The notes: generated by a model from the letters alone, not told the origin. A DNA stretch of 64,000 nucleotides from Micromonospora sp. C95 (GCF_018070465.1 NZ_JAGPXT010000003.1:1-64000); one strand, 5' to 3'; positions 11,274 to 27,488 are shown, numbered from the stretch's first letter. Numbers and translations are program-made.

Positions 11274-12514
11274 CGTGGCAACTTCGCGGCCGGGACGCGC
11301 AACTGCGGCAGGTCCACCGGTTCCTGCGGACCACGGAAGCGGGCACCGCGGCCGTGCTGCACGTCGAGGGTGGGTGGGGCAGCGGCCGTACCCGCCTGCT
11401 GCGTGAGGTGGTGGACGCGGCTGCCGCCGCCGGGTTCCACATCGTCGAGGACTGGTCCGCGGTCGCGGAGCCGGGCGCTCTCCAGGCCGCATCGGCGTCG
11501 CCCGGGCCGGTTCTGGTGGCCCTGGACGATCTGCACCAGGCGGATCCGACGACCGTCCGCGACCTTCGCACCTCGCTGTGGCGGCTGCGGGACCGACCGA
11601 TCGCCTGGGCGCTCAGCCGGCGTCGCCAGGCGGGTGGGCCCGCGGTGGATCAGCTCTTCGGCGAGGCCGGTCTGACGGCCGACCTGGTCGATCTCCAGCC
11701 GCTGTCCACCCAGGCCGTCGCGCTGTTGCTTGCCGATTGCACGAGCAGCCCCCTGGCCGGCCTACCCGGTCTGCTACCGGCGATCGGCGGAAACCCGCTG
11801 ATCGCCGTCGAACTGGCCCTCGGCACGCCCGGCACGGCACTGGACGGGAACATCGGCGAGCCACCGGCCCGGGTCCAGGCCTGCGTCCGCAGGTGCCTGA
11901 CGGACCTCGGCGACCACTGCCGACAGCTTGTCCAGGTGGGTGCGGTACTCGGTCCTCGCTTTCTACCGGGCGACGTGGCAAAGCTGCTCGGGCGGTCGGT
12001 GGCGGAGCTGCTCACGCCGGTCGAGGAGGCGATCGCCGCGGACCTCCTGTTCGGCGACGGTGACTGGCTGGCCTTCCGGCAGCCGTTGTTCCGGCGGTGC
12101 GTACGCGCCTCGCTCCCCGGTGCCGCGCGGATCGCCCTGGAGAATCAGGCCGCCGTCGAGCATCTCGACCTGGCCGTCGCGGCCGTCGACGAGGTCGCGG
12201 AGTTGCCGGAGACGCCCCAGATCGACGCCCCTTCCCTACCACTGCGCATCGGACCCGCCAAGCCCGTAGCCGCCCGGTCCGGCTGGGACGATCTGAGTGA
12301 CATCGAGCGAATGGTCGCAAGTCTGGTCAGCCAGGGGCTGACCAACCAGCAGATCGCCAGCCTCGTGTTCCGCTCACCGCATACGGTGAACTACCACCTT
12401 CGCCGCATCTTTCGGAAACTGGATATCCGCTCGCGGGTCGAACTGGCCCGGCTGACCCTGCTGCACTATTCGGCCTCGGAGGCGGACGAAGGCGCACTCG
12501 ACGTGGCTGGTTGA
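11270..12514 (+). CDS. Small LAL-type (LuxR C-terminal) transcriptional regulator
   Basis: 414 residues from the ATG overlapping the exporter stop. An N-terminal P-loop region (GGWGSGRTRLL, near residue 33, Arg where Lys is usual) and a Walker B-like LVALDDLHQAD mark an AAA/STAND module, shorter than in standard LAL proteins of about 900 residues. The C-terminal 65 residues are a LuxR helix-turn-helix: LSDIERMVASLVSQGLTNQQIA, then SPHTVNYHLRRIFRKL. Probably the pathway-specific activator of region 1. The last 49 bases overlap the 3' end of the phzD-like gene on the other strand, so the two coding regions end inside each other. Confidence 0.84.
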   Translation: MTWQLRGRDAQLRQVHRFLRTTEAGTAAVLHVEGGWGSGRTRLLREVVDAAAAAGFHIVEDWSAVAEPGALQAASASPGPVLVALDDLHQADPTTVRDLRTSLWRLRDRPIAWALSRRRQAGGPAVDQLFGEAGLTADLVDLQPLSTQAVALLLADCTSSPLAGLPGLLPAIGGNPLIAVELALGTPGTALDGNIGEPPARVQACVRRCLTDLGDHCRQLVQVGAVLGPRFLPGDVAKLLGRSVAELLTPVEEAIAADLLFGDGDWLAFRQPLFRRCVRASLPGAARIALENQAAVEHLDLAVAAVDEVAELPETPQIDAPSLPLRIGPAKPVAARSGWDDLSDIERMVASLVSQGLTNQQIASLVFRSPHTVNYHLRRIFRKLDIRSRVELARLTLLHYSASEADEGALDVAG

Positions 12515-13149
12515 GTGCTTAGCCGCGTGACCGCTTCGGAGGTGGACAGCGGCACCGCGCACCGACGCGCGGCGTAGCGCAGCGCCATGAGGTGATCCTC
12601 GATGGTGAAGTCGGCCAGCGCGTCGGCCACCAGGAACGGCTGGATGTCGCGGGTGAACGCCTCGCAGACCGTCATCAGGCACCCCACGTGGGCGTAGACG
12701 CCGCAGATGATGAGCTGGTCGCGCTGGGATCGTCGCAGCCGCTCCTCCAGATCACTGCGGTAGAACGCGCTGTAGCGCCACTTGGTCAGCACCGTCTCGC
12801 CCGGCTCCGGAGCGATCTCCTCGGCGATGCCGCGATCGGTCTCCGCCACGCTCATCCCCGGGCCCCACAGGTCGTACAGCAGCCCCCGCTCCTCGCGGGT
12901 CATGCCGCCGGGCTGCGCCGTGTACATCACCGGCACGCCCGCCCGGCGGGCCGCCGTGAGCAGCTTCGCGGTGTTGGCCATCAGCTCCGGGAACGGGGAC
13001 CGCCCTCGAGCGAAGGGCCGCAGGAAGTAGCGCTGCATGTCGTGTACCAGCACCACCGCCCGATCCGGACGAGGACGCCAGGGCAAGGCGGCCGGTGGCA
13101 CGTCGGCAACGTTCGGCATCCGGTACGGCGGGATCATCTTCATGGCCAT
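12466..13149 (-). CDS. phzD: Isochorismatase family, PhzD-like (2-amino-2-deoxyisochorismate hydrolase)
   Basis: 227 residues from ATG 13149 (AGGAG upstream; a GTG one codon earlier is also possible). The catalytic triad regions of the isochorismatase fold are visible: Asp in VLVHDMQRYFL, Lys in LTKWRYSAF and Cys in GVYAHVGCL. There is no aryl-carrier domain, unlike siderophore EntB. The RYFL and KWRYSAF context fits PhzD, which removes pyruvate from 2-amino-2-deoxyisochorismate to give 2,3-dihydro-3-hydroxyanthranilate. The PhzE homologue is at 24276-26234 and the presumed next enzyme is immediately upstream. No other phenazine genes (phzA/B, F, G) are present, so the product should be 3-hydroxyanthranilate. 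Last gene of the eight-gene operon. Confidence 0.88.
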   Translation of the reverse strand: MAMKMIPPYRMPNVADVPPAALPWRPRPDRAVVLVHDMQRYFLRPFARGRSPFPELMANTAKLLTAARRAGVPVMYTAQPGGMTREERGLLYDLWGPGMSVAETDRGIAEEIAPEPGETVLTKWRYSAFYRSDLEERLRRSQRDQLIICGVYAHVGCLMTVCEAFTRDIQPFLVADALADFTIEDHLMALRYAARRCAVPLSTSEAVTRLSTQPATSSAPSSASEAE

Positions 13150-13198
13150 CACAGGGCTCCTGTTCGGCAGGGATACTTCTTACAGACCGGTGCCCTCG

Positions 13199-13984
13199 TC
13201 AGCTGCGCAGCGCGGCACCGCCGTCGACGTACAGGTCCTGCATCGTGATGTGGCCGGCCTGGTCGGAGACGAGAAACGCGACCGCCTCGGCCACGTCCTC
13301 GGGCTGGGCCAGTTTCCCCAGGGGAATGCCGACGCGGTACGCGGCCAACGAGCCCGCCACGGCGAACTCCGGATCGACTCGTCCGCCGAGCATCGCGCGC
13401 AGCATCGGGGTGTCGGTGGAGCCCGGCGAGACGATGTTGCAGCGGATGCCGTAGCCGGCCAGCTCCAGCCCCAGACATCGAGTGAACTGTGCGGACGCCG
13501 CCTTGGACGCGGCATAGGCAGCCATCTCCACCCGGGGCACCCCGGCCGCGTTGGACGCCACCGTGACGATGGCACCGTGGCGACGAAGGATCATGCGACG
13601 GGCGACCGCGCGACAGACGTTGAAGACACCGCCGACGTTGACGGCCAACACCTCACTCCAGTATCGGTCCGACAGGTCGACCACCCTGCCGGTACGCAGG
13701 ACACCTGCCGCATTGACGACGATGCCGATCGGGCCCTGCTCATCCTCGACCCGCTGGACCAGCGCCTCCACCGCCACGCTGTCCTGAACGTCGACCGGGC
13801 GGCCGCGCACCGACAGGTTCTCGGCCTCGATCTTGGTCACCGTGTCGCCGAGCTGGTCGGCGTTACGGTCGACCGCGCAGACGTGTGCCCCGGCACGCGC
13901 CAGCGTCATCGCCACCGCCGCACCGATGCCCTGAGCCGCGCCCGTGACCAGCGCGACCTTCGACTCGATTCCGGAGAGTTCCAT
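13199..13984 (-). CDS. EntA-like SDR: dihydro-hydroxyanthranilate dehydrogenase
   Basis: 261 residues from ATG 13984 (GGGAG 6 bases upstream), overlapping the stop of the preceding monooxygenase. Classical SDR with all key residues: VTGAAQGIGAAVA cofactor loop, NAAG, Ser in VASNAAG, and Y-x3-K in YAASKAA. It closely resembles 2,3-dihydro-2,3-dihydroxybenzoate dehydrogenases. Next to phzD, and with phzE in the cluster, the expected reaction is NAD-dependent oxidation of 2,3-dihydro-3-hydroxyanthranilate to 3-hydroxyanthranilate, the route used in several benzodiazepine and benzoxazole pathways. No kynurenine-route genes are present, which supports the chorismate route. Confidence 0.85.
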   Translation of the reverse strand: MELSGIESKVALVTGAAQGIGAAVAMTLARAGAHVCAVDRNADQLGDTVTKIEAENLSVRGRPVDVQDSVAVEALVQRVEDEQGPIGIVVNAAGVLRTGRVVDLSDRYWSEVLAVNVGGVFNVCRAVARRMILRRHGAIVTVASNAAGVPRVEMAAYAASKAASAQFTRCLGLELAGYGIRCNIVSPGSTDTPMLRAMLGGRVDPEFAVAGSLAAYRVGIPLGKLAQPEDVAEAVAFLVSDQAGHITMQDLYVDGGAALRS

Positions 13985-15201
13985 CATGATCTCCCACTCG
14001 TACGGTCTTCCACGGCGACGGCCGGTGCGGTGACAGCGCCCTCGGCGTCGTATTCGAAGAGCCACTGATGCCGGTCCAGCCCCGAGGAGGTGCCGGCGGC
14101 GACATCCCGCAGCCGCTGCGCGGTGCCGTCGGCCAGATGCAAGGTGCCGGCACCGGCGCGCGACTCCGCTTGGATCCGGCTGGTCCGGGGAAGTCGGATC
14201 TGCTCGTACCGCCGTAGCGCCGCCGGCAGCCCGTCCCGACTCGCCGCCTCGAGACAGCGGGCGAGCACGGCGGCGTCCTCGATCGCCTGGTTCGCGCCCT
14301 GAGCCTGGAACGGCAGCATCGGATGGGCGGCATCGCCGATCAGGACGACCCTTCCGTGGGACAGCCGGTCGAGGCTTTCCCGATCATGGAGGGCCCACCT
14401 GCTCACCACGTCCACGGCGCCGATCAGCCGGGTGACGTCCGGATGCCAGCCCTGATACCGGGACGCCAGATCCCCTACGGTGCCCCGCGCCGTCCACGAT
14501 TCCTCCCGCCAGTCGACCGCCGGGACGGTCGCGCCGAAACTCACCTGCTGGCCCGAGGACACCGGATAGCAGACGCAGTGCTGGTCCGGTCCCAACCACA
14601 GGCGTACCGCCGGCTCGGCGACCAGGTGCGGTACCCGGTCGGCCGGCACCAGGCCGCGGTAGATGGTCTGCCCGGAGTACCGCGGCGTGTCGACGGCCAG
14701 GTGCTTCCGCACCACCGAACGGATGCCGTCGGCACCCACCACGAGGTCCGCCTTGACGCTCGCCGCATCGGCGAAGCGCAGTTGCGCGCTGTCTGCGGTC
14801 TGCGTCACGCCGATGCAGCGAGCGTTCAGGCGGATCTGTTCGGGTGGTGACAGCCCGAGCAGACAGGCGTGCAGATCGGCCCGGTGCAGTGTGTAGTACG
14901 GCGCACCGAACCGGTCCCGACAGGACTCGCCCAGCGGCGTGCGTCGCAGCAGTTCGCCATCGTTCCACCGGCGCATCTCGATGGTCTGCGGCAGCACCGC
15001 GACGGTCCTCAGCTGCTCCGCCAACCCCAGCCTGTGCAACAGCCGGGTGGCGTTGGGCGCGAGCTGCACTCCGGCCCCGACCTCGAACAGCCGCGGTGCC
15101 TGCTCGTAGACCACGACGTCGACGCCGGAGCGGCGGAGGGCGGCGGCGAGCGCGAGGCCGGCGATGCCGGCGCCCACGATGACCACGTTCATCTGTGGCA
15201 T
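13984..15201 (-). CDS. FAD-dependent monooxygenase, salicylate-hydroxylase-like
   Basis: 405 residues, ATG start; a second ATG three codons on is possible. Class A flavin monooxygenase: VVIVGAGIAGLALAAALRRSG at the N-terminus, the DG motif VGADGIRSVVRKHL near residue 155, and the GD motif LIGDAAHPMLPFQAQGANQAIEDA near residue 280, whose QGANQAIEDA ending is typical of the salicylate 1-hydroxylase and 3-hydroxybenzoate 6-hydroxylase group. Such enzymes hydroxylate, sometimes with loss of the carboxylate. A substrate here may be 3-amino-4-hydroxybenzoate, 3-hydroxyanthranilate or the coupled amide. Translationally coupled to the EntA-like gene and 19 bases after the ligase gene in the same operon. 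Confidence 0.86.
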   Translation of the reverse strand: MPQMNVVIVGAGIAGLALAAALRRSGVDVVVYEQAPRLFEVGAGVQLAPNATRLLHRLGLAEQLRTVAVLPQTIEMRRWNDGELLRRTPLGESCRDRFGAPYYTLHRADLHACLLGLSPPEQIRLNARCIGVTQTADSAQLRFADAASVKADLVVGADGIRSVVRKHLAVDTPRYSGQTIYRGLVPADRVPHLVAEPAVRLWLGPDQHCVCYPVSSGQQVSFGATVPAVDWREESWTARGTVGDLASRYQGWHPDVTRLIGAVDVVSRWALHDRESLDRLSHGRVVLIGDAAHPMLPFQAQGANQAIEDAAVLARCLEAASRDGLPAALRRYEQIRLPRTSRIQAESRAGAGTLHLADGTAQRLRDVAAGTSSGLDRHQWLFEYDAEGAVTAPAVAVEDRTSGRS

Positions 15202-15220
15202 ATCGGCCCCATCCCGACAG

Positions 15221-16534
15221 TCAGTAGTAGAGAAGCGCCTTGTCCCAGTCTTCGTCGGGGCCGAAAAGGCTGCGCGGCTTGACCACGTCGGGCATCGACG
15301 TCAGCACGGCGGCCGGCACCAGACTGCCCGGCGGTAGTCCGACGACCTCGGCGTCGACACCGATCACGGACCGGACCGATGCCGCCAGCTCCGCGCGGGC
15401 GGCCTCCCGGTGCTCCTGCGACACCTCGATCTCGACACGCAGGCGATCCGGTTCCACCCGTGCCCGCCAGAACAGCACGCCGTACGAGTCGGGCAGGGCG
15501 AAGACCAGTTCCTCGAGTTGATGCTGGGCGACCGTCGTCGACCCGACCCGGTACCCGAAGGCCGCCCGCCCGAACACCCTGACGGTGGGCAGATTCCAGC
15601 CGCACGCGCAGTCGCGGTAGGACACCGAGACGTCGTCTTCCAGGTTGTACCGCAGCAGCGGCATGGCCTCGCGGAACAGCGGCGTGACGACGAGTTGTCC
15701 CTCGCCCTCGCTCCGCACGGTGCCGGTCTTCGGGTCGTACACCTCGAACAGCGCTCGGTCGGCCCACAGGTGCAGTCGGCCGTCCGGGCACTCGCCGGCG
15801 AGGCTGCCGGTCTCGGTGGAGCCGTACTCCTCGATCACCGGCACGCCCCAGATCCTGCTGATGCGTTGCCGACGGACGTCGGTGAGGGGCTCGCCGCCCG
15901 TGAAGAGCGCCCGCAGCGCGGGAAAATCGGACCCCGGCCGGTGCCCAGCAGCGGCAGCTGCGGCGGCCCACAGCAGGTACTCCGTGGCCACCGCCCACGT
16001 CAACGTCACGCCCAGGTCGTGCAGGACCCGGACCACACGGGCGTACGGCATCGCCAGCGAGCGGTTGTCGCCCGGCACCACCGTGGCGCCGCGCAACCGC
16101 CCCGCGGCGTGCGCGAGATGACCCGTCAGCATGAGGGCATAGGGCGTACGGACCAGGAAGATGTCGCTCTCGGAGAAGCCGATCCACTTGCGGGCGAACC
16201 GTTCTGCCAGGTCGACCCAGTCCTCCGAGGTGTAGTAGGACGGCGTCGGCTGGCCGGCGGTGCCGCTGGATTCGTGGTAGGTCGCCAACCGCTCCTTGGG
16301 TACCGCCAACATCCCCCACGGGTAGTTGTCCCGTAGGTCCTGCTTGGTGGTCAACGGCAGCGAGGCGAGATCCGAGATGCTGGTGGGCAGGTTGGCCGGG
16401 TTCAGCCGCGACCGGTAGAACGGCGAGTTGGCGGCCCAGGACACGGTCTGCGGCAGTTGCTTCTCCTGCAGGCGCTGCACGTCCTCGAAGCCCTGCCACT
16501 GGCCCAGCTGAGGCAGGCTGGAATCAGGATTCAC
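15221..16534 (-). CDS. PaaK-like adenylate-forming ligase
   Basis: 437 residues from GTG 16534 (GGAGAGG upstream), overlapping the amidohydrolase stop by 4 bases (GTGA); length equals phenylacetate-CoA ligase. Adenylation motifs: the P-loop-like SSGTAGQPTPSYYT near residue 92, EEYGSTETGSLAGECPDG near residue 222, and a C-terminal domain ending KPRSLFG. The Lys-rich form of the P-loop is weak, as in several aryl-AMP ligases. The enzyme should activate an aminohydroxybenzoate and pass it to a partner amine or hydroxyl. In nataxazole, caboxamycin and A33853 biosynthesis a ligase of this kind works with an amidohydrolase to build benzoxazoles; the same pair is adjacent here. Confidence 0.87.
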   Translation of the reverse strand: MNPDSSLPQLGQWQGFEDVQRLQEKQLPQTVSWAANSPFYRSRLNPANLPTSISDLASLPLTTKQDLRDNYPWGMLAVPKERLATYHESSGTAGQPTPSYYTSEDWVDLAERFARKWIGFSESDIFLVRTPYALMLTGHLAHAAGRLRGATVVPGDNRSLAMPYARVVRVLHDLGVTLTWAVATEYLLWAAAAAAAGHRPGSDFPALRALFTGGEPLTDVRRQRISRIWGVPVIEEYGSTETGSLAGECPDGRLHLWADRALFEVYDPKTGTVRSEGEGQLVVTPLFREAMPLLRYNLEDDVSVSYRDCACGWNLPTVRVFGRAAFGYRVGSTTVAQHQLEELVFALPDSYGVLFWRARVEPDRLRVEIEVSQEHREAARAELAASVRSVIGVDAEVVGLPPGSLVPAAVLTSMPDVVKPRSLFGPDEDWDKALLYY

Positions 16535-17292
16535 GACGTTTCCTCTCCTAGCAGTCGATGGGCGTTGTCCCAGGCGACACGTCGCCACTGCTCGGCCGGC
16601 AGCCCCAGCACCTCGAACTTGACCAGTTCCACGGCGGGATGCTGGAGCGGATACTCGGAGCCGAAGACGACCCGCTCCGCGCCCAACCGGTGCAGCGCCG
16701 CCTCGGCCACGCTCGTGTAGCCGCCGGATGTCTCGAGGAAGATGTTGGGCACGTCCGCGACCAGGGTGAGCGCGTAGAGATCAATGTTGCCGATGCCGCT
16801 GTGGCCGAGGACGAAACGCACCTCGGGGAAGCGCTGTGCGAGCGCGACAAGGTCCGCCACGCCCGCGCCCGGCCGGGCGAGGCACACCACGTACACGGGG
16901 TGGTTGACCGAGGCCGCCACGTCGATCAGGGCCACGACTCGTGGATCAAGCAGTCCGATGCCGTGCACCGCGGGCGATATCTCCAGGCCACGGAAGTCCG
17001 CGGCCACCGCACGATACGGGTCCGGCGTTCGATGCGGGTTCGCGAAGAAGAACGGTACGAGGCGCCCGCCGGTGCCCGCACAGGCACCCAGTACCGCGTC
17101 GTTGTCGGCATCCGTCTCCACATGTCCGGCGAGAATGAGCTGGCGCGACAACCTGTCGAGATCGATGACGCCGCCGGCGCACACCACCGCTCGATCGAGC
17201 CCACACCCGTCCAGCGTCTTAAGCATCCGCTCCCGAGCACCGGGGCGGGGAGCCAGGCGTACGTGGAAATCCAGGATGCGTTGCCTGGTCAT
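16531..17292 (-). CDS. Amidohydrolase-superfamily protein (putative benzoxazole-forming cyclase)
   Basis: 253 residues, ATG start. TIM-barrel amidohydrolase_2 type: N-terminal LDFHVRL, central VLGHSGIGN, and C-terminal FGSEYPLQHP followed by DNAHRLLG. The metal-binding positions deviate: the first-strand HxH reads H-V-R and the late Asp is Glu (GSEYP). Family members beside an AMP ligase (NatAM in nataxazole, BomN in A33853) form the oxazole ring from two aminophenol acids, and a clostridial benzoxazole pathway from 3-amino-4-hydroxybenzoate uses a related protein. That is the favoured role here. Alternatives are a decarboxylase or an ordinary hydrolase. Fourth gene of the operon, 10 bases after the GriH-like gene. 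Confidence 0.82.
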   Translation of the reverse strand: MTRQRILDFHVRLAPRPGARERMLKTLDGCGLDRAVVCAGGVIDLDRLSRQLILAGHVETDADNDAVLGACAGTGGRLVPFFFANPHRTPDPYRAVAADFRGLEISPAVHGIGLLDPRVVALIDVAASVNHPVYVVCLARPGAGVADLVALAQRFPEVRFVLGHSGIGNIDLYALTLVADVPNIFLETSGGYTSVAEAALHRLGAERVVFGSEYPLQHPAVELVKFEVLGLPAEQWRRVAWDNAHRLLGEETS

Positions 17293-17302
17293 CGCGCACT
17301 GC

Positions 17303-18406
17303 TCACTTCTCGATGCAGAACTCGTCGATCGGGTAACCGACGTGTCGCTGCTCCACCGGCAGGTAGCCGAGCAGCTTCGTGCCCGCCGTCAGCTCCGTGA
17401 CGTTGAGCACGACACCGCCCGGGCCGAGCACCCGCACGTGCCAGTCGTCCTGAACGATCAGGTTGACCTGAACACCCGAGGCGGAAACCGCGTCGATCGC
17501 CAGCATCGGTCGTCTCTCGATCTTTACGCGGCCGACCGTGATGGCTCGTACTCGCCCCGCCGAATCCACCGCCATCACCTTGCCGCCGGCTTCCAGCTCA
17601 CTGAGATACCTGGTGCGCCCCTGCTCGGAGAGGGTGTACGAGTGCAGCGCTCCGGCGTTGACCCGGAACGGGCGGGTGGGCATGTAGGGCAGCGGGTGGG
17701 TCTCACTGCAACACAGGATCATGCCGTGCGAGTACGAGCCGACGACGATGCCTTCGTCGGGACGGAACTGGGAGCAGGTGTCCACGCAGACCCGGTCGCC
17801 GAGGCCGGCACGTCGAAGTCCGACGACCTCCAACTCGGACAGCGTGAGGTCTGCGGCACCGCCCGCTGCCGCAGCGCTCAGGTTGGTGGCCTCACCGACC
17901 CGGGTGGGCGCGAGCATCACCCCGTCGGAGCCGTGCTCGAGCACCCCGAAGACGATCTGCGCCTCCTCGACGTCGGCAACCTGGGTGATGATCGAGCCCG
18001 GCGCACCGGCGGCAGCGGCGAGCACGATCTCCAGCGGGATCTTGGTGGGATCCCGGAACGACAGGACGCTCCAGTGATCGAAGCGGGCCGCCCGGCACGC
18101 GTCGTCGAGGCTGGCTGCGTCGACGATCTCCACGAACCGGCCGAACTCCAGCTCGGGGTGGCGCTGAGCCAGATCGGCGGGATCGCCGTGCCGGGCCGGG
18201 TCCACGACGACGAGGTCGACGTCGTCGAGCTTCTCCGGCAGTGCGTCGGCGTTCGGGAACAGCACCCGCTTGACGGTCGGGGGAATCGCCGCCAGGTCGG
18301 CCGGATCCGCCGCCACGATGGCGTCCACCCGCTGGTGGATGCCCTCCTCGATGATTGCGTTCTTGGCTCCGTCCGCGTTACGGATGTCTAGCCAACACAG
18401 CTTCAC
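17303..18406 (-). CDS. griH: GriH-like 3-amino-4-hydroxybenzoate synthase (3-dehydroquinate synthase II family)
   Basis: 367 residues, ATG start 18 bases after the GriI-like stop. It carries the long conserved block of archaeal-type 3-dehydroquinate synthase and GriH: CVDTCSQFRPDEGIVVGS (near residue 212), SHGMILCCSETHPLPYMPTR, then PFRVNAGALHSY. In grixazone biosynthesis GriH converts the GriI product, a C7 amino-keto sugar phosphate, to 3-amino-4-hydroxybenzoate without the shikimate pathway. Adjacent GriI-like and aspartokinase genes make that role much more likely than a quinate function, since bacteria with the standard shikimate route have no need for this family. Confidence 0.92.
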   Translation of the reverse strand: MKLCWLDIRNADGAKNAIIEEGIHQRVDAIVAADPADLAAIPPTVKRVLFPNADALPEKLDDVDLVVVDPARHGDPADLAQRHPELEFGRFVEIVDAASLDDACRAARFDHWSVLSFRDPTKIPLEIVLAAAAGAPGSIITQVADVEEAQIVFGVLEHGSDGVMLAPTRVGEATNLSAAAAGGAADLTLSELEVVGLRRAGLGDRVCVDTCSQFRPDEGIVVGSYSHGMILCCSETHPLPYMPTRPFRVNAGALHSYTLSEQGRTRYLSELEAGGKVMAVDSAGRVRAITVGRVKIERRPMLAIDAVSASGVQVNLIVQDDWHVRVLGPGGVVLNVTELTAGTKLLGYLPVEQRHVGYPIDEFCIEK

Positions 18407-18424
18407 TGATCGTCTCCCTAGCAG

Positions 18425-19246: not shown

Positions 19247-19259
19247 GATTTCCTGCCTC

Positions 19260-20546
19260 TCAGGCCGGGGTGGGGTGGCCGGCGGTCGACAAGGCGCCAT
19301 TGGCGCTGGGCGCGTCCCCCTCGGGTCGGTCGAGGCGGAACTCGCGGTGCAGCACGTCCACGGTGTCGACGGTGCGTTCCTGAGGCACGATGACGGACAG
19401 CCGGGACTGGGAGGTGGAGATCCAACTGGTCGGAATCTCGGCGGCGGCCAGGGCGGCTATGAGCCGCGCGGAATACTCGGGACGGCTGAGCAACCCCACG
19501 CCGATGACCGACACCTTGCCGACGTTCTCGTCGAAATGCACGCCGCCGTTGTGCATGACCGCGATCTCGTGCAGAAGGCCGCGAACCCGGTCCGCTTCAC
19601 TACGACGAATGGTGAACCCCATTCGGAACTCTTTCTCGTACGGCCCGGATCTGGCCACCAGGTCGGCCACCGTCCCCTGACCCGCCAGTGCGGCGAACAC
19701 GTCGGGGGCGAGGTCACCACGACCGTCCCGGCAGTGCACGAGCACCCGCGCGACGTCATCGTCGTGTGTCACCGCCATGACAGCCTGCCGGGTCTCCAGC
19801 GGCTGCCCCTCCTCGATCTCGGAGATAATTGTTCCGGGCCGGTCCGACAGTGCGTTTCGGATGCACACCTCAACTCCCTCCATAGCCGCCAACTCGACAC
19901 AGCGGGTGTGCAGAATCCGTGCGCCCGCGAACGCCATTTCCGCCATGACGGTGGGATGGATCCAGGGCAGCCGCCGGGCAGCGGGAATGACACGAGGATC
20001 GGCGGTGAACACGCCGTCGACATCCGTGTATATCTCACAGGCGGCCCGCAGGCGCGCGGCCATGGCCACCGCGGTCGTGTCGGATCCACCACGTCCGAGC
20101 GTGGTTACGTCTCCGTACGGGCTGACCCCTTGGAACCCGGTGACTACCGCGATCTTGCCCGCGTTCAGCACCGACCGCACGGATGCCGTCGCGATCCTGG
20201 CGATGAGCGCGTCGCCATGCCGGTCCGTCGTCCGCAGACCAGCCTGGTGCGCCGTCAGCGACGTCGCCGGCGCGCCCAGCCCGTTCAGCACGAGCGCCAT
20301 CAGCGCGGCCGACTCGCATTCCCCGACCGCCAGCAACTGGTCGAGTTCCCGCGACGGACCAGCCGAGCCGACGTCCGACGCGAGTCGCAGCAGATCATCT
20401 GTACGGCCGCCACGGGCCGAGACGACCACGACCACCGATCTCCCTCGCCGCCACTCCCGGGATATCCGCAAAGCGGCGCGATGAACGCGGTCGAGCGTCT
20501 CCAGAGAGGTACCACCGTATTTTTGGACCAGCACGTCCACGCTCAT
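19260..20546 (-). CDS. ask: Aspartate kinase, cluster-dedicated
   Basis: 428 residues from ATG 20546 with GAGG upstream; longer in-frame starts have no such site. The catalytic domain opens VLVQKYGGTSLETLDRV and includes GRGGSDTTAVAMAARL and the DVDGVFTADPRVIP loop. The C-terminal 160 residues form tandem ACT domains (SVIGVGLLSRPEYSARL, then WISTSQSRLSVIVP), the usual site of lysine/threonine feedback. It phosphorylates aspartate on the way to aspartate-4-semialdehyde, the amino donor skeleton used by GriI. First gene of the eight-gene operon. Whether feedback control has been lost cannot be judged by eye. Confidence 0.92.
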   Translation of the reverse strand: MSVDVLVQKYGGTSLETLDRVHRAALRISREWRRGRSVVVVVSARGGRTDDLLRLASDVGSAGPSRELDQLLAVGECESAALMALVLNGLGAPATSLTAHQAGLRTTDRHGDALIARIATASVRSVLNAGKIAVVTGFQGVSPYGDVTTLGRGGSDTTAVAMAARLRAACEIYTDVDGVFTADPRVIPAARRLPWIHPTVMAEMAFAGARILHTRCVELAAMEGVEVCIRNALSDRPGTIISEIEEGQPLETRQAVMAVTHDDDVARVLVHCRDGRGDLAPDVFAALAGQGTVADLVARSGPYEKEFRMGFTIRRSEADRVRGLLHEIAVMHNGGVHFDENVGKVSVIGVGLLSRPEYSARLIAALAAAEIPTSWISTSQSRLSVIVPQERTVDTVDVLHREFRLDRPEGDAPSANGALSTAGHPTPA

Positions 20547-21027
20547 CACCGCCTCGAAATTGTGAGCGATCGGACCCAACATTAAACGGCGGAACCGACT
20601 TGCCGCACTACCCACCCAAGTGGTGCCGAACCATGCAGGTGTTCGCGCCACGTCGGCTCGCATCACACACCCCGCATGACGTGACCACCGCACATCGGGT
20701 CGTATAGGCGAGCACCGGAACTTCCGATTAATTGAGAACAGGCCATGGCGTGTTCACGCCATGTTGCGGCCCGCCAGGCCGGAACAGCGTTGCTTGGTCA
20801 GGTAGTTGTTTCTGGTGACCGGTCGCCGCAGAATCTAAAGGTCCACCGGGTTCGCCCGCTCGCCTGACAGCTCGAAGATCCGGCAACAGAAGGTGCTGTT
20901 CGACTGTGCGTTCGATGGCCGGAGCCGGCCATTCAGCAAGATTCGCGTGGAGCATGCGATACCCATTCTAGGAATGAACAGGGATGCGGGTCATTAAAGC
21001 GACCCGCTGTCGCCTGGGAGGCATGCA
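20547..21027. promoter_or_regulatory. Divergent intergenic region, aspartokinase operon / fusion gene
   Basis: 481 bases without a credible gene, less GC-rich than its surroundings in places (for example 20725-20740). It must hold the promoter of the minus-strand precursor operon and that of the fusion gene at 21028. A perfect inverted repeat at 20744-20763 is a candidate regulator site. I could not place -35 and -10 boxes with confidence. Confidence 0.5.
20744..20763. promoter_or_regulatory. Perfect palindrome, possible operator
   Basis: CATGGCGTG, a 2-base spacer (TT), then CACGCCATG: perfect 9-bp arms. It lies 198 bases upstream of the aspartokinase start and 264 bases upstream of the fusion gene start. 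Symmetry fits a dimeric regulator site, though a transcript hairpin is possible. Confidence 0.4.
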
Positions 21028-23349
21028 ATGTCCAGCAGACAACTATCGGTCATAGGACGGTCTCGAACGGCCGTCGCCCTCGCGGCGCGGGCGCCGTCGC
21101 GATGGCTGAGTGAGCTCCTGCCGGGTGAACCGGACCCTGGACGGCTGCTGAGGTTCGCTCTGGTCAACACGTGTACCGTGACGGCCCTGCTGCTCGGCGC
21201 CAGCGCCATCCTGTTGGCCACGAACGGCGAGTTGCGCTGGGCCAGCCTCTGCCTTCTCGGCTGCTTCACCCTCGACGGCATCGACGGGGCGCTCGCCCGA
21301 AGGTTCGCGGTGACGAGTCCGTTCGGAGCCCAGATGGACTCGCTTGCGGATCTGTGCGGGTTCGGGCTGGCGACACCCCTGCTGGCCTATCACTGGCTCA
21401 GCGGCGCCGCTCCGCTCTACGTGGTGGCGGTCGCGTGCGCAGGCCTGGCCGTCTGCGCGATGATCCGGCTCGCCCGATTCAACGTGCTGCCGAAGGACGG
21501 CCGCTACTTCACCGGGCTTCCAGCGGCGATGCCCGCGGTGATCCTCGCCGTCACCATCCAGTTGGGCATCGCGCCGACCGCTGGCCACGTCGGGCTGACC
21601 GGGGCGCTGGCTGTCCTGATGGTCACCACGCTGCCGTACTCCAAGTTCGGACCGCTCGTCGCGCTACCCCGATGGATCTGGCCGCTTCCGCTGGCCGCGC
21701 TCGTGGCCGGGCCAAGGGTCGTCTTCGGGCTCGCAGCCGCCACCTACCTGTCGTCGGGACCGGCTCTGGGTCTCCTGCGGCGCGTCCGCCGGCCCGCTCC
21801 GGACGTGGTCACCGAGCTCCTGCCAGGCCCGCGCAACAACGCAGCCGAGACGCCACCGACCGAGTTGGCCGGGCCCACCTCGACGCGGCACGTTCGGATC
21901 GCGATCATCGGAGCCGGCTTCGCGGGACTCGGCATGGCGATGCGGCTCAAGCAGCTGGGCATCGACGATTTCCTCGTGCTCGAGCGCGCCGACGACGTCG
22001 GTGGAACCTGGCGCGACAACGTCTACCCCGGTGCCGCCAGCGACGTGCCGTCCAACCTGTACTCCTACTCGTTCGCGCCCGACCCCGACTGGACCCGCAC
22101 TTTCCCGTCCCAGCCCGAGATCCAGCGGTACCTCCGCCGGTGCACGGAACAGTTCGACCTGAGTGCCAAGATCCGATTCCGCCACGAACTCATCTCCGCC
22201 GAGTGGCAGGAGGAGGCCAACCGGTGGCGGATCGACACCTCACAGGGGGATATGACCGCCGACGTCCTCGTCGTAGCCACCGGCCCGCTCAGCAGGCCCG
22301 CCACGCCGCGCATCCCCGGCCTGGACCGATTCACCGGCCCGACCTTCCACACGGCGACCTGGGATCCCACGTTCGACCTGAGTGGGAAACGCGTGGCGGT
22401 GATCGGCACCGGCGCCTCCGCCGTACAGTTCATCCCGCAGATCCAACCAGCGGTATCCCAACTGTATGTCTTCCAACGTACGCCTCCGTGGGTGATCCCC
22501 CGCTGGGATCGAAGGAAGACGGGCCTGGAGAAGAAGCTCTACCGGCGGTTCCCGCAGACGCAGCGAATGGCTCGGACGGCTGTCTATCTGTGGCGCGAGT
22601 CCTTCATCCTCGGCCTCCGGTTCGATCAACACATGCTCGGACCGGCGGAGTGGTGGGGGCGGCGTCACCTGCGCCGGCAGGTGAGTGACCCAGAGCTGCG
22701 CGCGGCGCTCACTCCCGATCATCGGTTCGGCTGCAAGCGGGTCGTGCTCTCCAGCACGTTCTATCCCGCTGTCACCCGGGACAACACCGAGCTTGTGCGA
22801 AGCGCGATCCAGGAGCTGCGCCGGAACTCCATCGTCACGGTGGACGGCACCGAACGGGTGGTCGACACGATCGTCTTCGGCACCGGCTTCGAGCCCGCCA
22901 ACATGCCCATAGCCCGCCGGCTGCGCGGCAGGGGCGGCCGCCTGCTCGCCGATGCGTGGCGCGAGGGTGCCCAGGCATACCTGGGCACGGCCATCGCCGG
23001 GTACCCGAACCTCTTCATGCTCCTTGGGCCCAACACCGTCTCCGGGCAGAACTCCTCGCTGCTGACGATGGAGGCCCAGGTCGACTACGCGATAAACGCC
23101 GTGCGCTTCATGGAGCAGGTCGACGTCGCGGTGGTGGAGGTACGACCAGAAGCCCAGGCGTCATTCGTCTCGGAGGTCCAGAGCAAGATGACCGGGACGG
23201 TCTGGGCCTCCGGATGCCGGAGCTGGTATCTCGATGAGCACGGCCGCAACACGACACTCTGGCCCAGCATGACCCGTTCCTTTCGCCAACGGACACGTCG
23301 GTTCGACCACGAGAACTACGTCCTGCGGTCCTACGCGCTACCCGAATGA
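21028..23349 (+). CDS. Fusion: CDP-alcohol phosphatidyltransferase + Baeyer-Villiger-type flavin monooxygenase
   Basis: 773 residues in one uninterrupted frame; ATG with GGGAGG 6 bases upstream. Residues about 40-250 form a hydrophobic PssA-like domain with the full CDP-alcohol phosphatidyltransferase signature: D86-G87, A90-R91, G100, D104 and D108, plus the FTGLPAAMPA loop of phosphatidylserine synthases near residue 161. After a 35-residue linker, residues 288-773 are a class B flavin monooxygenase: GAGFAG at 295-300, FTGPTFHTATW at 435-445 (the Baeyer-Villiger fingerprint) and a second Rossmann site GTGASA at 460-465. Each half looks intact. The pairing is unusual: a membrane lipid or other alcohol may be joined and oxidised. 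The next gene is a phospholipid-methyltransferase-like protein. Confidence 0.85.
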   Translation: MSSRQLSVIGRSRTAVALAARAPSRWLSELLPGEPDPGRLLRFALVNTCTVTALLLGASAILLATNGELRWASLCLLGCFTLDGIDGALARRFAVTSPFGAQMDSLADLCGFGLATPLLAYHWLSGAAPLYVVAVACAGLAVCAMIRLARFNVLPKDGRYFTGLPAAMPAVILAVTIQLGIAPTAGHVGLTGALAVLMVTTLPYSKFGPLVALPRWIWPLPLAALVAGPRVVFGLAAATYLSSGPALGLLRRVRRPAPDVVTELLPGPRNNAAETPPTELAGPTSTRHVRIAIIGAGFAGLGMAMRLKQLGIDDFLVLERADDVGGTWRDNVYPGAASDVPSNLYSYSFAPDPDWTRTFPSQPEIQRYLRRCTEQFDLSAKIRFRHELISAEWQEEANRWRIDTSQGDMTADVLVVATGPLSRPATPRIPGLDRFTGPTFHTATWDPTFDLSGKRVAVIGTGASAVQFIPQIQPAVSQLYVFQRTPPWVIPRWDRRKTGLEKKLYRRFPQTQRMARTAVYLWRESFILGLRFDQHMLGPAEWWGRRHLRRQVSDPELRAALTPDHRFGCKRVVLSSTFYPAVTRDNTELVRSAIQELRRNSIVTVDGTERVVDTIVFGTGFEPANMPIARRLRGRGGRLLADAWREGAQAYLGTAIAGYPNLFMLLGPNTVSGQNSSLLTMEAQVDYAINAVRFMEQVDVAVVEVRPEAQASFVSEVQSKMTGTVWASGCRSWYLDEHGRNTTLWPSMTRSFRQRTRRFDHENYVLRSYALPE

Positions 23350-23366
23350 GTAGGCGGGAGGGCAGC

Positions 23367-23404
23367 CTGCGGCGCCGAGCCCGTGGCGATCGGCGGCGCC
23401 GCAG
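23367..23404 (+). terminator. Hairpin after the fusion gene
   Basis: Perfect 11-bp GC-rich stem (23367-23377 with 23394-23404), 18 bases after the stop codon, without a T tract. It may separate the fusion gene from the methyltransferase gene. Confidence 0.45.
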
Positions 23405-23538
23405 GGCTCACCGTCCACCACAGGTCCGCCTCGATCCCTCGGCGTGATGCACCCGGTCGTCAGGAGCCCGCCCCCGACCGAGCCAGGGTGCTGTCCGGAC
23501 CACTCGAGTTCCGGCCATCTGGCGAGCGGAATCGAACC

Positions 23539-24252
23539 ATGTCGGCACGCGACCACCACTTGATCAGCCCTACCCGAACAGGACGGCTCCACGTGGCTAC
23601 TGACTACGGTTTTTTCGTTCGCGAGTTCCTGCGGAATCCGGCCCGAACCGCATCGGTCATCCCCAGTGTGGCGGCCGTCGGCAGGCGCATGGCCGCCGCC
23701 GTACCCGAGCTGGACGACCCGGTCGTCGTCGAACTGGGGCCGGGAACTGGCTCTTTCACCGCCGAGATCCAGCGTCGGCTCGGAGCGCGCGGCCGACATC
23801 TGGCCGTGGAACTCAACGACCGGTTCGCCACCCAGTTACGAGGTCGGTTCCCCGCGGTCGACGTGGCCGTCGGTGACGCGGCTCAGCTCCGTCGTCTCCT
23901 CGACGAACGCCAGGTGCGCTTCGCCGACGCCGTCATCAGCGGCCTTCCGTACGCACTGTTCTCCGCGAGTGAGCTGCACCGGATGATGAGTGCCGTCCGG
24001 GACAGCCTGACCCCGGACGGGACGTTCGCGGCATTCGCCTATGTCCATGCGGCCTGGACGCCGCCCGCTCGTCGCTTCTACCGCCTGCTACGCGGCAGCT
24101 TCCGGGAGGTGGCCGTCAGCAGAGCCGTCTGGCACAACTTGCCGCCTGCGTTCGTCTACACCGCCCGTCACGCCCTCGCTCACGTACCGCAGCAGCGAGG
24201 CGACGACCGGCGGGATCGGGCGATGGAGACGGTGACTCCCCCTTGGCGGTAG
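23539..24252 (+). CDS. Phospholipid N-methyltransferase/rRNA-dimethylase-like methyltransferase
   Basis: 237 residues from ATG 23539, whose ribosome site is weak; a GTG at 23593 is an alternative. SAM motif I is VVELGPGTGSFTAEI near residue 68, followed by LAVELNDRFA and an ISGLPYALFS motif IV. The N-terminal FFVREFLRNPARTASVIPS matches PmtA-type phosphatidylethanolamine N-methyltransferases, which belong to the same superfamily as rRNA adenine dimethylases. Next to a phosphatidylserine-synthase-like fusion, a lipid headgroup acceptor is plausible. It is convergent with phzE; the stops are 24 bases apart. Confidence 0.72.
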   Translation: MSARDHHLISPTRTGRLHVATDYGFFVREFLRNPARTASVIPSVAAVGRRMAAAVPELDDPVVVELGPGTGSFTAEIQRRLGARGRHLAVELNDRFATQLRGRFPAVDVAVGDAAQLRRLLDERQVRFADAVISGLPYALFSASELHRMMSAVRDSLTPDGTFAAFAYVHAAWTPPARRFYRLLRGSFREVAVSRAVWHNLPPAFVYTARHALAHVPQQRGDDRRDRAMETVTPPWR

Positions 24253-24275
24253 CCCGGTGCCGCGCTGGCTGCGCG

Positions 24276-26234
24276 TCATCTGGCCAACGAGACCGGCACC
24301 AGCGCACCGAGAAGCTCGTTGAGGATCTGCGGTCCGTGCTGGGTGAGCACCGATTCCGGATGGAACTGCACGGACCGAAAGTGCGGGCCGCGCAGGGCGT
24401 GCACCTGCCCGGACCAGCGGTCCCGACTGACCTGGAGAGGCTGACTCAGGCCCGGGTGAACGATCTGGTCCTGGTCGCAGCGGGCGCTGTAGGTGTTGTA
24501 GAACGCCACCCGCTCAGGCTGGCCGAACATGTCGATCACGCGCTGGACGCCCTGGTTCGGCACCGCCAGCCGGACGATCTCCAGGCCGAGTTCCACGGCG
24601 AGTATCTGGTGTCCCAGACAGATGGAGAGGAAGGGCGTGGTGCCGGAGAGCAGTTCCTCGGTGAGGGCGCGTAGGGCGCTGATCCGAGGATCGTCGGCGT
24701 CACGCGGATCCCCAGGACCGGGACCGACCACGATGATCTCGAAGTCTTCCTTGTTCAGCGGCTCGTCGTACCGGGCGATCCTGGTGTGCAGGCCCAGGGC
24801 CCGAAGTTGGTGGCCAAGCATGGCGGTGAACGTGTCCTCGCCATCCACGACCAGCACGCGCCGGCCGTGCAGGGCCGGCTCCGGTGCGACCCGGTGTGCA
24901 CCCTCGAGCCAGAAGTTGGAGAGCGTGCTGTTTCGCCCCTGCAGCGCCTGTCGAACGCGCGGATCGGCGGACAACGGCGGCTGGGAACGCGAGACGGACC
25001 GGACAACGGATTCAACTGACTCATCCGTCAGGCCGAGCGCCCCGAGCATGCCCGCCACCTTGGTTCGAGTCTCGGCAACCTCGGAGTCGGGATCCGAATC
25101 CCGGACCAAGGTGGCACCGACGCCCAACCGAAGCTGACCACCCGCGTCGATCTCTGCCGTCCGAATCATGATCGCCGAGTCGAGGGTCCGCCGACCCAGG
25201 CCATCCTGGCCGATCAGCGCGAGGAATCCGCCGTAGTAACCGCGACCAGTCGTCTCATGGCGGCTGATCACCCGGAAAGCGTTCTCTAGTGGGCTACCCG
25301 TGACGGTGGGAGCCAGCAACGTAGATCGCAGCACCTCCCGCACATCGAGGTCGCTGGGGCCATGCAGGAGGTATTCGGTATGGGTCAGGCTCGCCATCTC
25401 CTTCAGAAACGGACCCCGGACCCGCCCGCCCGCCGGGCAGATGTGCGCCATCATCTTCAGCTCTTCGTCGACCACCATGTAGAGCTCGTTCGACTCCTTG
25501 GGGTCTGCGAGGAACTCCAGAAGCCCTCGAAGGTCCGGGCCCTCGGGCGGATGGCGGTACGTGCCACTGATCGGGTTCATCGTCACCGCGCCCTCGCTCA
25601 GGCTCACGTGCAGTTCCGGCGACGCCCCGATGAAGGTTCCGAAACCAGTGTGGACAAGAAAGGTCCAGTACGCCCCGGACTCGCTGGTAACCAGCCTTCG
25701 GAAGATGCTCAGCTCCTTGCGAACCGAGTAGTCACGGACCTGCGCGACGAACGAGCGCCTGATGACGAAGTTCGACCCGGCCCCGTTGCCGATCTCGTCG
25801 CGCAGAATCCGGCGTACGGTATCCGCATACGTCTGGTCGTCGATGTCGAATCCGGCCCCGCGCACGGACACGTCCTCCGCGGGTAGCAGCGCGGTAGCTC
25901 GGGCCAGGTCGATTTCGGCGCGGTCCCGGATCCGCATGGCCAGCAGCGGCGCCTTGTCTTCGCGGCAGGCGAACCCGCGCTCGGTGATCTGCCGGTAGGG
26001 GACCACCGCGAGGAGGTCGTGGCGACCTTCGGCCGCTCCGTCTGCGTTGCCTGTCGGTGCCGGCAGCGGAAGATCTGCCAGACGTTCCACAATTGAAATG
26101 TCGCCGACGAGCACCTCGACCGATGCGTCCGAGAACGAGTGCGGCCGGTGCAGCAGGGCGAACCCAGATCCGTCCTGGCCCAGACCGGCCAGGACGTCGG
26201 CGGGATCTGCCATACCCAATTTCATCCCGAGCAC
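24276..26234 (-). CDS. phzE: PhzE-like 2-amino-2-deoxyisochorismate synthase (fused TrpE-TrpG type)
   Basis: 652 residues, GTG start with AAAGGGG upstream. Residues 1-430 are a chorismate-binding domain (NPISGTYRHP near residue 217, TVTGSPLENAFRVISRHE near residue 313, then GRGYYGG). Residues 450-650 are a class I glutamine amidotransferase: Cys in SICLGHQILAVELG and the His-Glu pair in VQFHPESVLT. Fused enzymes of this shape are anthranilate synthases or PhzE. With a PhzD homologue and an EntA-like dehydrogenase in the cluster, ADIC synthase is favoured: chorismate plus glutamine gives 2-amino-2-deoxyisochorismate. It is separated by 4 kb from the rest of the 3-hydroxyanthranilate genes. Confidence 0.88.
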   Translation of the reverse strand: MLGMKLGMADPADVLAGLGQDGSGFALLHRPHSFSDASVEVLVGDISIVERLADLPLPAPTGNADGAAEGRHDLLAVVPYRQITERGFACREDKAPLLAMRIRDRAEIDLARATALLPAEDVSVRGAGFDIDDQTYADTVRRILRDEIGNGAGSNFVIRRSFVAQVRDYSVRKELSIFRRLVTSESGAYWTFLVHTGFGTFIGASPELHVSLSEGAVTMNPISGTYRHPPEGPDLRGLLEFLADPKESNELYMVVDEELKMMAHICPAGGRVRGPFLKEMASLTHTEYLLHGPSDLDVREVLRSTLLAPTVTGSPLENAFRVISRHETTGRGYYGGFLALIGQDGLGRRTLDSAIMIRTAEIDAGGQLRLGVGATLVRDSDPDSEVAETRTKVAGMLGALGLTDESVESVVRSVSRSQPPLSADPRVRQALQGRNSTLSNFWLEGAHRVAPEPALHGRRVLVVDGEDTFTAMLGHQLRALGLHTRIARYDEPLNKEDFEIIVVGPGPGDPRDADDPRISALRALTEELLSGTTPFLSICLGHQILAVELGLEIVRLAVPNQGVQRVIDMFGQPERVAFYNTYSARCDQDQIVHPGLSQPLQVSRDRWSGQVHALRGPHFRSVQFHPESVLTQHGPQILNELLGALVPVSLAR

Positions 26235-27391: not shown

Positions 27392-27488
27392 GGCGGTTCC
27401 TCTCTGGGTCGAAACTGACGATGCATTTCGTGGCGACGATGGCTCGGCCGTCAAGTGCCACCGAGGCGACGACGAGGGAGCCTGCGCC

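Follow-up and report, generated by a model that had tools for sequence, protein, structure and literature searches.

Background

Diazepinomicin, also known as ECO-4601, TLN-4601 and BU-4664L, is an antitumour compound that has been taken to a phase II cancer trial. Its published gene cluster, from strain 046Eco-11, combines PhzE-, PhzD- and MxcC-like genes for 3-hydroxyanthranilate (3-HAA) with a proposed second aminohydroxybenzoate, and encodes an HMG-CoA (3-hydroxy-3-methylglutaryl-CoA) synthase, a prenyltransferase and a sensor protein as orf10-12 (PMC3871700). Feeding work cited in the same paper places 3-HAA in ring A; ring B is assigned, as a speculation, to 3-amino-5-hydroxybenzoate, and a 4,6,8-trihydroxy core is named for the compound. 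Before a DzmP-type prenyltransferase was assayed, the functions of individual diazepinomicin genes had not been studied experimentally (PMC3871700, 2013), and no later experimental test of them was found in the open-access literature searched. Here we analyze a 64,000-nucleotide stretch of DNA from Micromonospora sp. C95 (GCF_018070465.1 NZ_JAGPXT010000003.1:1-64000; hereafter, the window), which carries an eight-gene run predicted, together with a nearby PhzE gene, to supply and couple 3-HAA and 3-amino-4-hydroxybenzoate (3,4-AHBA), and compare it with diazepinomicin-type and other clusters that use aromatic acids.

A conserved two-acid gene run

Genes were called by codon-position GC and domains were assigned by Pfam and NCBIfam scans; 30 genes were called and scanned in the first 40.8 kb of the window, and 25 called genes lie in its 1-31 kb. 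The run occupies 12466-20693 on the minus strand and encodes, in the order of transcription, an aspartate kinase (AspK), GriI, GriH, an amidohydrolase-fold protein (AMH), a ligase (LIG), a flavin hydroxylase (FMO), an EntA-like short-chain dehydrogenase/reductase (SDR) and PhzD, with -82 to +46 bases between the longest open reading frames (ORFs). A sequence-only reading of this DNA had recognized two acid gene sets in one operon with phzE nearby, and every gene that it named is indeed in its place on the minus strand.

As judged by homology, PhzE, PhzD and the EntA-like enzyme likely provide 3-HAA, and AspK, GriI and GriH likely provide 3,4-AHBA. The best matches of PhzD are the PhzD-kind chains 3r77 (242 bits) and 1nf9 (232), followed by a chain named putative hydrolase (222), with isochorismatases and isochorismate lyases scoring 202 bits or less. 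PhzE, encoded at 24276-26234 on the same strand as the run and separate from it, scores 636 bits against 3r74, which we take to be PhzE and whose entry title reads anthranilate/para-aminobenzoate synthase component I. Among NCBIfam models, BagB, BagC and BagE score highest for the GriI-, GriH- and ligase-like proteins, respectively. All three differ from the bagremycin/ferroverdin proteins in falling under the curated cut-offs (364 bits against 500 for GriI, 584 against 750 for GriH); GriI and GriH pass the cut-offs of broader models. We know of no 3-HAA route for bagremycin or ferroverdin.

To retrieve contigs bearing related clusters, 15 AMH sequences were aligned and the alignment was used as the query, which yielded 36 loci reaching 10 kb from AMH; longer stretches were compared as well for some genomes, and the per-gene identity and coverage limits were chosen after a first look at the loci. 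In 19 of the 36 loci, GriI, GriH, EntA and PhzD are all encoded no more than 10 kb from AMH, and the GriI-GriH-AMH-LIG-FMO core is present in 33 (the exceptions are L002, L025 and L031), so the run is not a chance assembly. Nine loci (L020, L021, L022, L024, L025, L028, L029, L033 and L035) contain GriI, GriH, AMH and LIG (L025 without FMO) and no 3-HAA genes within 10 kb; in these, either 3-HAA comes from tryptophan breakdown or a different acyl donor is used.

At the level of the class, LIG relatives (E up to 1e-70) occur in 9 of 394 genomes, the window's own among them. The surroundings of the other eight are diverse: L095 holds both acid sets; L096 (20 kb) has AspK, GriI, AMH, LIG, EntA and PhzD and no match to GriH, FMO or PhzE; L097 (C180:42500-62499; NatL2-like ligase, 64%) is a benzoxazole-type cluster with KASIII, an AMP ligase, an acyl carrier protein (ACP), a 493-aa PF01979 amidohydrolase, EntA, PhzD and PhzE; and in five the ligase is 48-51% identical, with no other cluster-gene match nearby.

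The closest resemblance is to diazepinomicin-like clusters. Like the cluster of strains 046Eco-11 and RV115, the window has, by homology, a PhzE, PhzD and EntA/MxcC-like route to 3-HAA and a route to a second aminohydroxybenzoate, but AspK, GriI and GriH indicate 3,4-AHBA, not 3-amino-5-hydroxybenzoate. Look-alikes in M. chalcea, P. suffuscus and S. toyocaensis share with it the entire AspK-GriI-GriH-AMH-LIG-FMO-EntA-PhzD run, along with the genes for an SDR, a DUF6081 protein, an aromatic-ring hydroxylase (RngHyd), a sodium:solute symporter-family (SSF) protein, a VCPO-like protein and, except in P. suffuscus, a glyoxalase-fold protein, all at 45-81% identity. The P. suffuscus region around Psuf_091470 has been termed diazepinomicin-like (PMC7692728); AMH of our P. 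suffuscus locus, L013, is Psuf_091130, 34 tag steps away, and the two regions are probably, not certainly, the same. M. chalcea has the same gene order and, to the left of the run, further genes for a farnesyl diphosphate synthase, a diphosphomevalonate decarboxylase, an FMN-dependent dehydrogenase-family protein (perhaps a type II isopentenyl diphosphate isomerase), an HMG-CoA synthase, an ABBA prenyltransferase and a sensor kinase, and the succession HMG-CoA synthase, prenyltransferase, sensor is the one printed for orf10-12 of 046Eco-11.

On the basis of these comparisons, we consider it probable that the cluster joins 3-HAA and 3,4-AHBA into a non-farnesylated dibenzodiazepinone, with a core run shared with diazepinomicin-like clusters. 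It is a real, conserved two-acid cluster that embodies no new principle, the logic of diazepinomicin being already the same; the novelty that had been claimed for the two-acid combination is thus lost, since the published diazepinomicin cluster already pairs 3-HAA genes with a proposed second aminohydroxybenzoate and the look-alikes carry the same run. A single product of both acids, as the sequence-only reading had it, is likely. It is very improbable that 3-HAA and 3,4-AHBA each end in a metabolite of their own: the nine loci with GriI and GriH and no nearby 3-HAA genes would suit such a division, but the own genome has only one LIG match, the genes form one run whose order is conserved together across genera, and diazepinomicin offers a precedent for joint use.

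Ligase and amidohydrolase

Over 432 aligned positions, LIG shares 61% identity with both NatL2 and AjiA1. It has the C-terminal extension and the zinc site, and scores 596 bits against NatL2 vs 189 bits against ClxA (9s3l, assumed to be ClxA from the agreement of its Y218, T222 and N226 with the paper). In NatL2, E235 contacts the hydroxyl of adenylated 3-HAA, and Thr128, Thr135, Arg156, Trp178, Ala211 and Ala212 form the pocket for the second acid (PMC7204872); in ClxA, which activates 3,4-AHBA, a tyrosine (Y218) takes the place of E235 and N226 serves the para-hydroxyl (PMC12519233). Among 37 LIG sequences (the window and the 36 loci, the L005 row being unreadable at some positions), E235 is Glu in 36 and Asp in one, the place of N226 is Ser in 35, R156 is unchanged wherever it can be read (36 rows), and the zinc ligands and K418 are kept in all 37. 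On the acceptor side, A211 is replaced by Gly in 36 of the 37 and A212 by Gly in all. These residues point to a donor pocket of the 3-HAA kind and a different acceptor pocket, which would fit 3-HAA as the acyl part, as in the diazepinomicin amide.

A donor pocket like that of NatL2 indicates acyl coupling, which tells against a phenoxazinone or other simple oxidative o-aminophenol dimer of the kind seen in grixazone or the ahbamycins. Two predicted o-aminophenol acids and several oxidases could be read in favor of such a product, but neither a tyrosinase nor a multicopper-oxidase family is represented in the 30 genes called within the first 40.8 kb, and we regard it as scarcely credible. An ahbamycin-type pathway was likewise set aside, 'amidohydrolase' and '3-hydroxyanthran' being absent from the main text of PMC10179220. 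Mycemycin dibenzoxazepinones resemble the proposed product in that two aromatic acids yield a tricyclic seven-membered ring, but they derive from salicylate and anthranilate by way of a KAS-type condensing enzyme, a tryptophan dioxygenase and a kynureninase (PMC5867642); the different acids and the condensing enzyme rule out this type.

The pairing of a PaaK-like ligase with an amidohydrolase had suggested that the two acids are closed to a benzoxazole. Both genes are present and the ligase is of the NatL2 kind, but the amidohydrolase is not NatAM-like: AMH is a 253-aa protein of PF04909, residues of NatAM are traced up to 494 (PMC7204872), and the solved chains listed for AMH, 15 up to E 10, include no chain named NatAM. 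Closure of the NatAM type was rejected on family and length (the L097 enzyme represents PF01979, with about 490 residues for this type). The metal site of AMH may be H-x-R, in which case the protein would be metal-dead, or may instead include D8-x-H10; the full site of the ACMSD type is H-x-H, H, D.

A mixed benzoxazole would arise if LIG made the 3-HAA/3,4-AHBA ester and AMH dehydrated it as NatAM and PfxB do. The 61% identity of LIG to NatL2 and the presence of the pair speak for this, as does closoxazole ClxD, which is just 18.4% similar to NatAM, so that an amidohydrolase unlike NatAM can close a benzoxazole. Several observations are at odds with it: AMH belongs to another Pfam family than its L097 counterpart and is half as long; L097, with the same ligase type, has KASIII, ACP and PF01979 families, none of which turned up in the 25 genes called between 1 and 31 kb; 34 of the 36 loci contain an FMO relative; and AMH of diazepinomicin-like clusters is 78-79% identical to that of the window. 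The conserved neighbors (FMO, the phenol hydroxylase, the SDR and DUF6081) are those of diazepinomicin-like clusters, which makes a dibenzodiazepinone likelier than a benzoxazole; the benzoxazole reading is quite unlikely and probably wrong. Nataxazole/AJI9561-type clusters (PMC7204872) share with the window the ligase with E235, R156, the zinc site and K418, and the 3-HAA genes; the window differs in the family and length of AMH, in the added 3,4-AHBA genes and in the KASIII and ACP families just mentioned. In closoxazole clx/pfx clusters (PMC12118335, PMC12519233), an AMP ligase and an amidohydrolase likewise accompany the genes for 3,4-AHBA, but the ligase of the window is distant from ClxA, with the 3-HAA-type donor residue E235 and Ser at the place of N226.

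A sister lineage without detected farnesyl genes

Unlike diazepinomicin-type clusters, the genome that contains the window yielded no match to a DzmP-like prenyltransferase or an HMG-CoA synthase. The DzmP-like search gave no match in this genome or in A. xinjiangensis and was positive in 7 of 9 genomes; a second prenyltransferase search of the own genome was also empty, although no positive control matched in it; and the search that found no HMG-CoA synthase here was positive in 17 of 34 genomes. Five PF00348 synthases are encoded in the own genome, none of them on the contig of the window, and a PF00494 gene, located on another contig (C20), was rejected as part of the cluster. In a tree of concatenated LIG, AMH, GriH and GriI sequences with 39 tips, the window groups with A. 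xinjiangensis (0.999), and this pair is the sister of 16 loci (together 0.994), in whose genomes one or the other gene was found, HMG-CoA synthase in 13 and a DzmP-like gene in the other 3 (L006, L011 and L017). The window belongs, then, to a sister lineage of the diazepinomicin-like clusters and carries a non-farnesyl variant. It has an O-methyltransferase, a gene resembling lipid methyltransferases and a phosphatidyltransferase-Baeyer-Villiger fusion, none of which has a match in the compared stretches of M. chalcea, P. suffuscus and S. toyocaensis.

The genome of Phytohabitans suffuscus holds two loci of the cluster family, L013 and L027, the latter in the other main branch of the tree.

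Predicted assembly and a proposed precursor of ring B

The solved relatives of FMO are led by tropone 2-monooxygenase (323 bits), decarboxylative vanillate 1-hydroxylase (247) and 6-hydroxynicotinate 3-monooxygenase (244), followed by an FAD protein without a name (242), a 4-hydroxybenzoate enzyme (237) and salicylate hydroxylases (163-182). The substrates of such decarboxylating hydroxylases are acids that bear a hydroxyl in the position ortho or para to their carboxyl group. Since 3,4-AHBA has a para hydroxyl and 3-amino-5-hydroxybenzoate has neither an ortho nor a para one, and since GriI and GriH are present, the comparison suggests that 3,4-AHBA, and not the published 3-amino-5-hydroxybenzoate, is the ring-B precursor of diazepinomicin. 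No link between diazepinomicin and 3,4-AHBA was found in the parts of the open-access literature searched, which is no proof that the link is unpublished. The second flavin hydroxylase matches a chain that we take to be a RebC variant (4eip, 250 bits), RebC (243) and 2,4-dichlorophenol 6-monooxygenase (186), and is 69-73% identical in four related clusters.

A route consistent with these assignments can be outlined, the first three steps of which rest on homology and residues and the last two of which are the least certain. Following the synthesis of 3-HAA by PhzE, PhzD and the EntA-like enzyme and of 3,4-AHBA by AspK, GriI and GriH, LIG would adenylate 3-HAA and hand the acyl group to the 4-hydroxyl of 3,4-AHBA, and the ester would shift to the neighboring amine, perhaps under the guidance of AMH. 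FMO would then exchange the carboxyl of the 3,4-AHBA moiety, para to the hydroxyl, for a hydroxyl, and the second flavin hydroxylase would introduce another ortho to the phenol. Oxidation would give a 2-amido-6-hydroxybenzoquinone, with whose carbonyl the free amine of 3-HAA would condense, closing the seven-membered ring. In this mapping, the C3 amine of 3,4-AHBA would become the amide nitrogen, its C4 hydroxyl the quinone carbonyl that takes the 3-HAA amine, its C1 carboxyl the C8 hydroxyl and the new C5 hydroxyl the C6 hydroxyl, which would produce the 4,6,8-trihydroxy core. Finally, the O-methyltransferase, the fusion protein and the second methyltransferase would decorate the core in place of the farnesyl tail.

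Several points weigh against this account. The link to diazepinomicin runs through the order and content of the genes and a single previous annotation. The published proposal gives ring B to 3-amino-5-hydroxybenzoate, and the nearest relative of FMO is tropone 2-monooxygenase, which outscores the decarboxylating enzymes. The Gly-Gly pair at 211/212 of LIG may be ancestral instead of marking a new acceptor. The multicopper oxidase and class-II DAHP (3-deoxy-D-arabino-heptulosonate 7-phosphate) synthase of M. chalcea have no counterpart among the 30 called genes, and the lack of the former there leaves quinone formation with no obvious enzyme. In nine of 36 loci GriI and GriH occur with none of EntA, PhzD and PhzE within 10 kb, so that the core is not always accompanied by 3-HAA genes. 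Finally, the window begins at base 1 of its contig, and there may be further genes to the left.

The comparison supplies candidate ring-joining enzymes for diazepinomicin (a NatL2-type ligase, a relative of decarboxylating hydroxylases and a PF04909 protein) as well as the acid 3,4-AHBA. It also reveals a sister lineage that has a phosphatidyltransferase-oxygenase fusion and in which the search for farnesyl machinery gave no match. What is new here is this non-farnesyl variant, with a fusion enzyme that is itself unusual, and a proposed, testable revision of the precursor of ring B.

A phosphatidyltransferase-Baeyer-Villiger fusion

The most unusual gene of the region, a phosphatidyltransferase-Baeyer-Villiger fusion at 21028-23349, had gone unmentioned in the sequence-only reading. 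In the N-terminal domain, the motif D-x2-D-G-x2-A-R-x8-G-x3-D-x3-D is intact at residues 83-108, as it is in A. xinjiangensis and L096; PF01066 scores 53 bits (cut-off 22), the NCBIfam model pssA 90 bits (below its cut-off of 107), and solved phosphatidylserine synthases 44 bits, a modest likeness. The C-terminal part contains GxGxxG from residue 295 and the fingerprint F-x-G-x3-H-x3-W-[P/D] from residue 435, and its solved relatives are steroid and phenylacetone monooxygenases. To our knowledge, a phosphatidyltransferase-oxygenase fusion is not part of any described natural-product pathway.

When two candidates were scored in each of 354 genomes of the family, near-full-span matches appeared in two, the own genome included. 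L096 belongs to another family, and there the phosphatidyltransferase and Baeyer-Villiger monooxygenase (BVMO) parts are encoded by two genes that overlap. A database search in which only the first domain was scored (candidates of 0.55-1.75 times the length of the fusion, E up to 1e-10) returned, among the best 7996 candidates, at least 15 relatives, every one with both domain types, from Verrucosispora, Actinoplanes, Nonomuraea, Dactylosporangium, Kibdelosporangium and other sources. Six of the 15 lie on contigs equal in size to those of listed AMH or LIG relatives (6282985, 48787, 80827, 122553, 180665 and 59055 bases); six are on contigs shorter than 10 kb, and one, on a 119773-base contig, has no partner among the matches listed. 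In A. xinjiangensis the fusion is contiguous with the cluster (L015); in Kibdelosporangium the fusion and the cluster relative share the organism only.

The adjacent methyltransferase (23383-24252) scores 92 bits against the ornithine-lipid N-methyltransferase model (cut-off 350) and 64 bits against the phospholipid N-methyltransferase model (cut-off 250), and its homologues in A. xinjiangensis and L096 are 57% and 56% identical. Two branches of the core tree thus contain the phosphatidyltransferase/BVMO and methyltransferase genes, which the window shares with A. xinjiangensis and L096.

These genes allow two readings, both built on the same dibenzodiazepinone core. It is possible, though on balance unlikely, that the phosphatidylserine-synthase-like domain and the methyltransferase leave the product untouched and serve self-protection by remodeling membrane lipids: the N-terminal domain has phosphatidylserine synthases as its solved relatives, the CDP-alcohol motif is intact and the NCBIfam models nearest to the methyltransferase are lipid N-methyltransferases, but fusion to a monooxygenase would be odd for that role and the look-alike stretches of M. 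chalcea, P. suffuscus and S. toyocaensis have no match. The boldest and more doubtful reading has the farnesyl tail swapped for a phospholipid, the fusion oxidizing the core and transferring a phosphatidyl group or other CDP-activated phospho-alcohol from a CDP-lipid to one of its hydroxyls, with the relative of lipid N-methyltransferases trimming the conjugate. Were this true, the gene cluster of a bacterial natural product would encode a dedicated enzyme that builds this product covalently into membrane phospholipid.

A calcineurin-like metallophosphoesterase is encoded beside two phosphatidyltransferase-bearing clusters, in A. xinjiangensis and L096 (L078:6264-7682 and L096:17620-18894, 56% identical to each other). 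It was rejected as a cluster component, its nearest relative in the own genome (67%) lying on another contig, at C64:262150-263460.

Other genes and neighboring regions

Table 1. Genes of the two-acid cluster and its surroundings in the window, with predicted roles
Product and predicted role	Position	Strand	Basis
VCPO-like (vanadium haloperoxidase fold) protein	1459..3084	-	PF22778, PF21167
O-methyltransferase	3041..4108	-	PF00891
Aromatic-ring flavin hydroxylase (RngHyd), RebC/2,4-dichlorophenol 6-monooxygenase-like; predicted ortho-hydroxylation of 3,4-AHBA ring	4176..5843	-	
Sodium:solute symporter-family (SSF) protein	5840..7705	-	PF00474
DUF6081 protein, predicted jelly-roll (GH16-like) fold	8054..8803	+	PF19559
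SDR oxidoreductase	8857..9558	-	Pfam/NCBIfam scan
MFS exporter	9810..11273	+	domain scan
LuxR-family regulator, N-terminus uncertain (overlaps MFS gene)	10892..12514	+	PF00196; A. xinjiangensis 48%
PhzD-like isochorismatase, predicted 3-HAA route	12466..13152	-	
EntA/DhbA-like dehydrogenase (SDR), predicted 3-HAA route	13199..14065	-	TIGR04316 338 bits, cut-off 300
FMO, kin of decarboxylating para-hydroxylases; predicted C1 hydroxylation of 3,4-AHBA ring	13984..15201	-	
LIG, NatL2-type PaaK-like adenylating ligase; predicted to use 3-HAA as donor and 3,4-AHBA as acceptor	15221..16588	-	
AMH, PF04909 amidohydrolase-fold protein; predicted ester-to-amide or ring-closure step	16531..17292	-	
GriH/BagC-like DHQ (3-dehydroquinate) synthase II, predicted 3,4-AHBA route	17303..18406	-	
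GriI/BagB-like aldolase, predicted 3,4-AHBA route	18425..19300	-	
AspK, aspartate kinase; predicted aspartate semialdehyde supply	19260..20693	-	
Fusion of CDP-alcohol phosphatidyltransferase (phosphatidylserine-synthase-like) and type I Baeyer-Villiger monooxygenase	21028..23349	+	PF01066, PF13738/PF00743
Methyltransferase, lipid N-methyltransferase-like	23383..24252	+	NCBIfam, far below cut-off
PhzE-like 2-amino-2-deoxyisochorismate synthase, predicted 3-HAA route	24276..26234	-	
DoxX-family membrane protein	26550..27026	+	domain scan; A. xinjiangensis 55%
Ferredoxin	27182..27511	-	domain scan; A. xinjiangensis 51%
MFS exporter (DHA2 type)	27489..28925	-	domain scan; A. xinjiangensis 74%
Glyoxalase/bleomycin-resistance-fold protein, predicted self-protection	30715..31095	+	

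The genes that flank the run (Table 1) recur to different extents in the related clusters. In the stretches compared, homologues of the VCPO-like protein are found in A. xinjiangensis (66%), S. toyocaensis (55%), P. suffuscus (54%) and M. chalcea (53%), and those of the glyoxalase-fold protein in S. toyocaensis (71%), M. chalcea (67%), A. xinjiangensis (66%) and L096 (55%). The O-methyltransferase was matched in A. xinjiangensis alone (69%) among the 36 loci and the longer stretches, the 36 loci possibly ending short of this gene. Relatives of the symporter at 45% identity or more occur in 9 of the 36 loci, those of the DUF6081 protein, at the same level, in 13, and those of the SDR at 8857-9558 in 16. 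The structure model of the DUF6081 protein is of moderate confidence (pLDDT 77) and matches jelly-roll folds like those of GH16 glucanases, with a TM score (query) of at most about 0.6.

To the right of the cluster, 31161-37049 contains fermentation-type genes, for an AdhE-like aldehyde-alcohol dehydrogenase, a pyruvate formate-lyase-like protein and a radical-SAM activase-like protein, which separate it from a second cluster-like region at 38003-59739 (ORFs were scanned up to 59739). The latter encodes LuxR and SARP-type regulators, an isopropylmalate-synthase-like enzyme, a 3-hydroxyacyl-CoA dehydrogenase, thioesterases, a class-III aminotransferase, a lysine/ornithine monooxygenase and a nonribosomal peptide synthetase module with condensation, AMP-binding and carrier domains, a combination that suggests a hydroxamate-type peptide.

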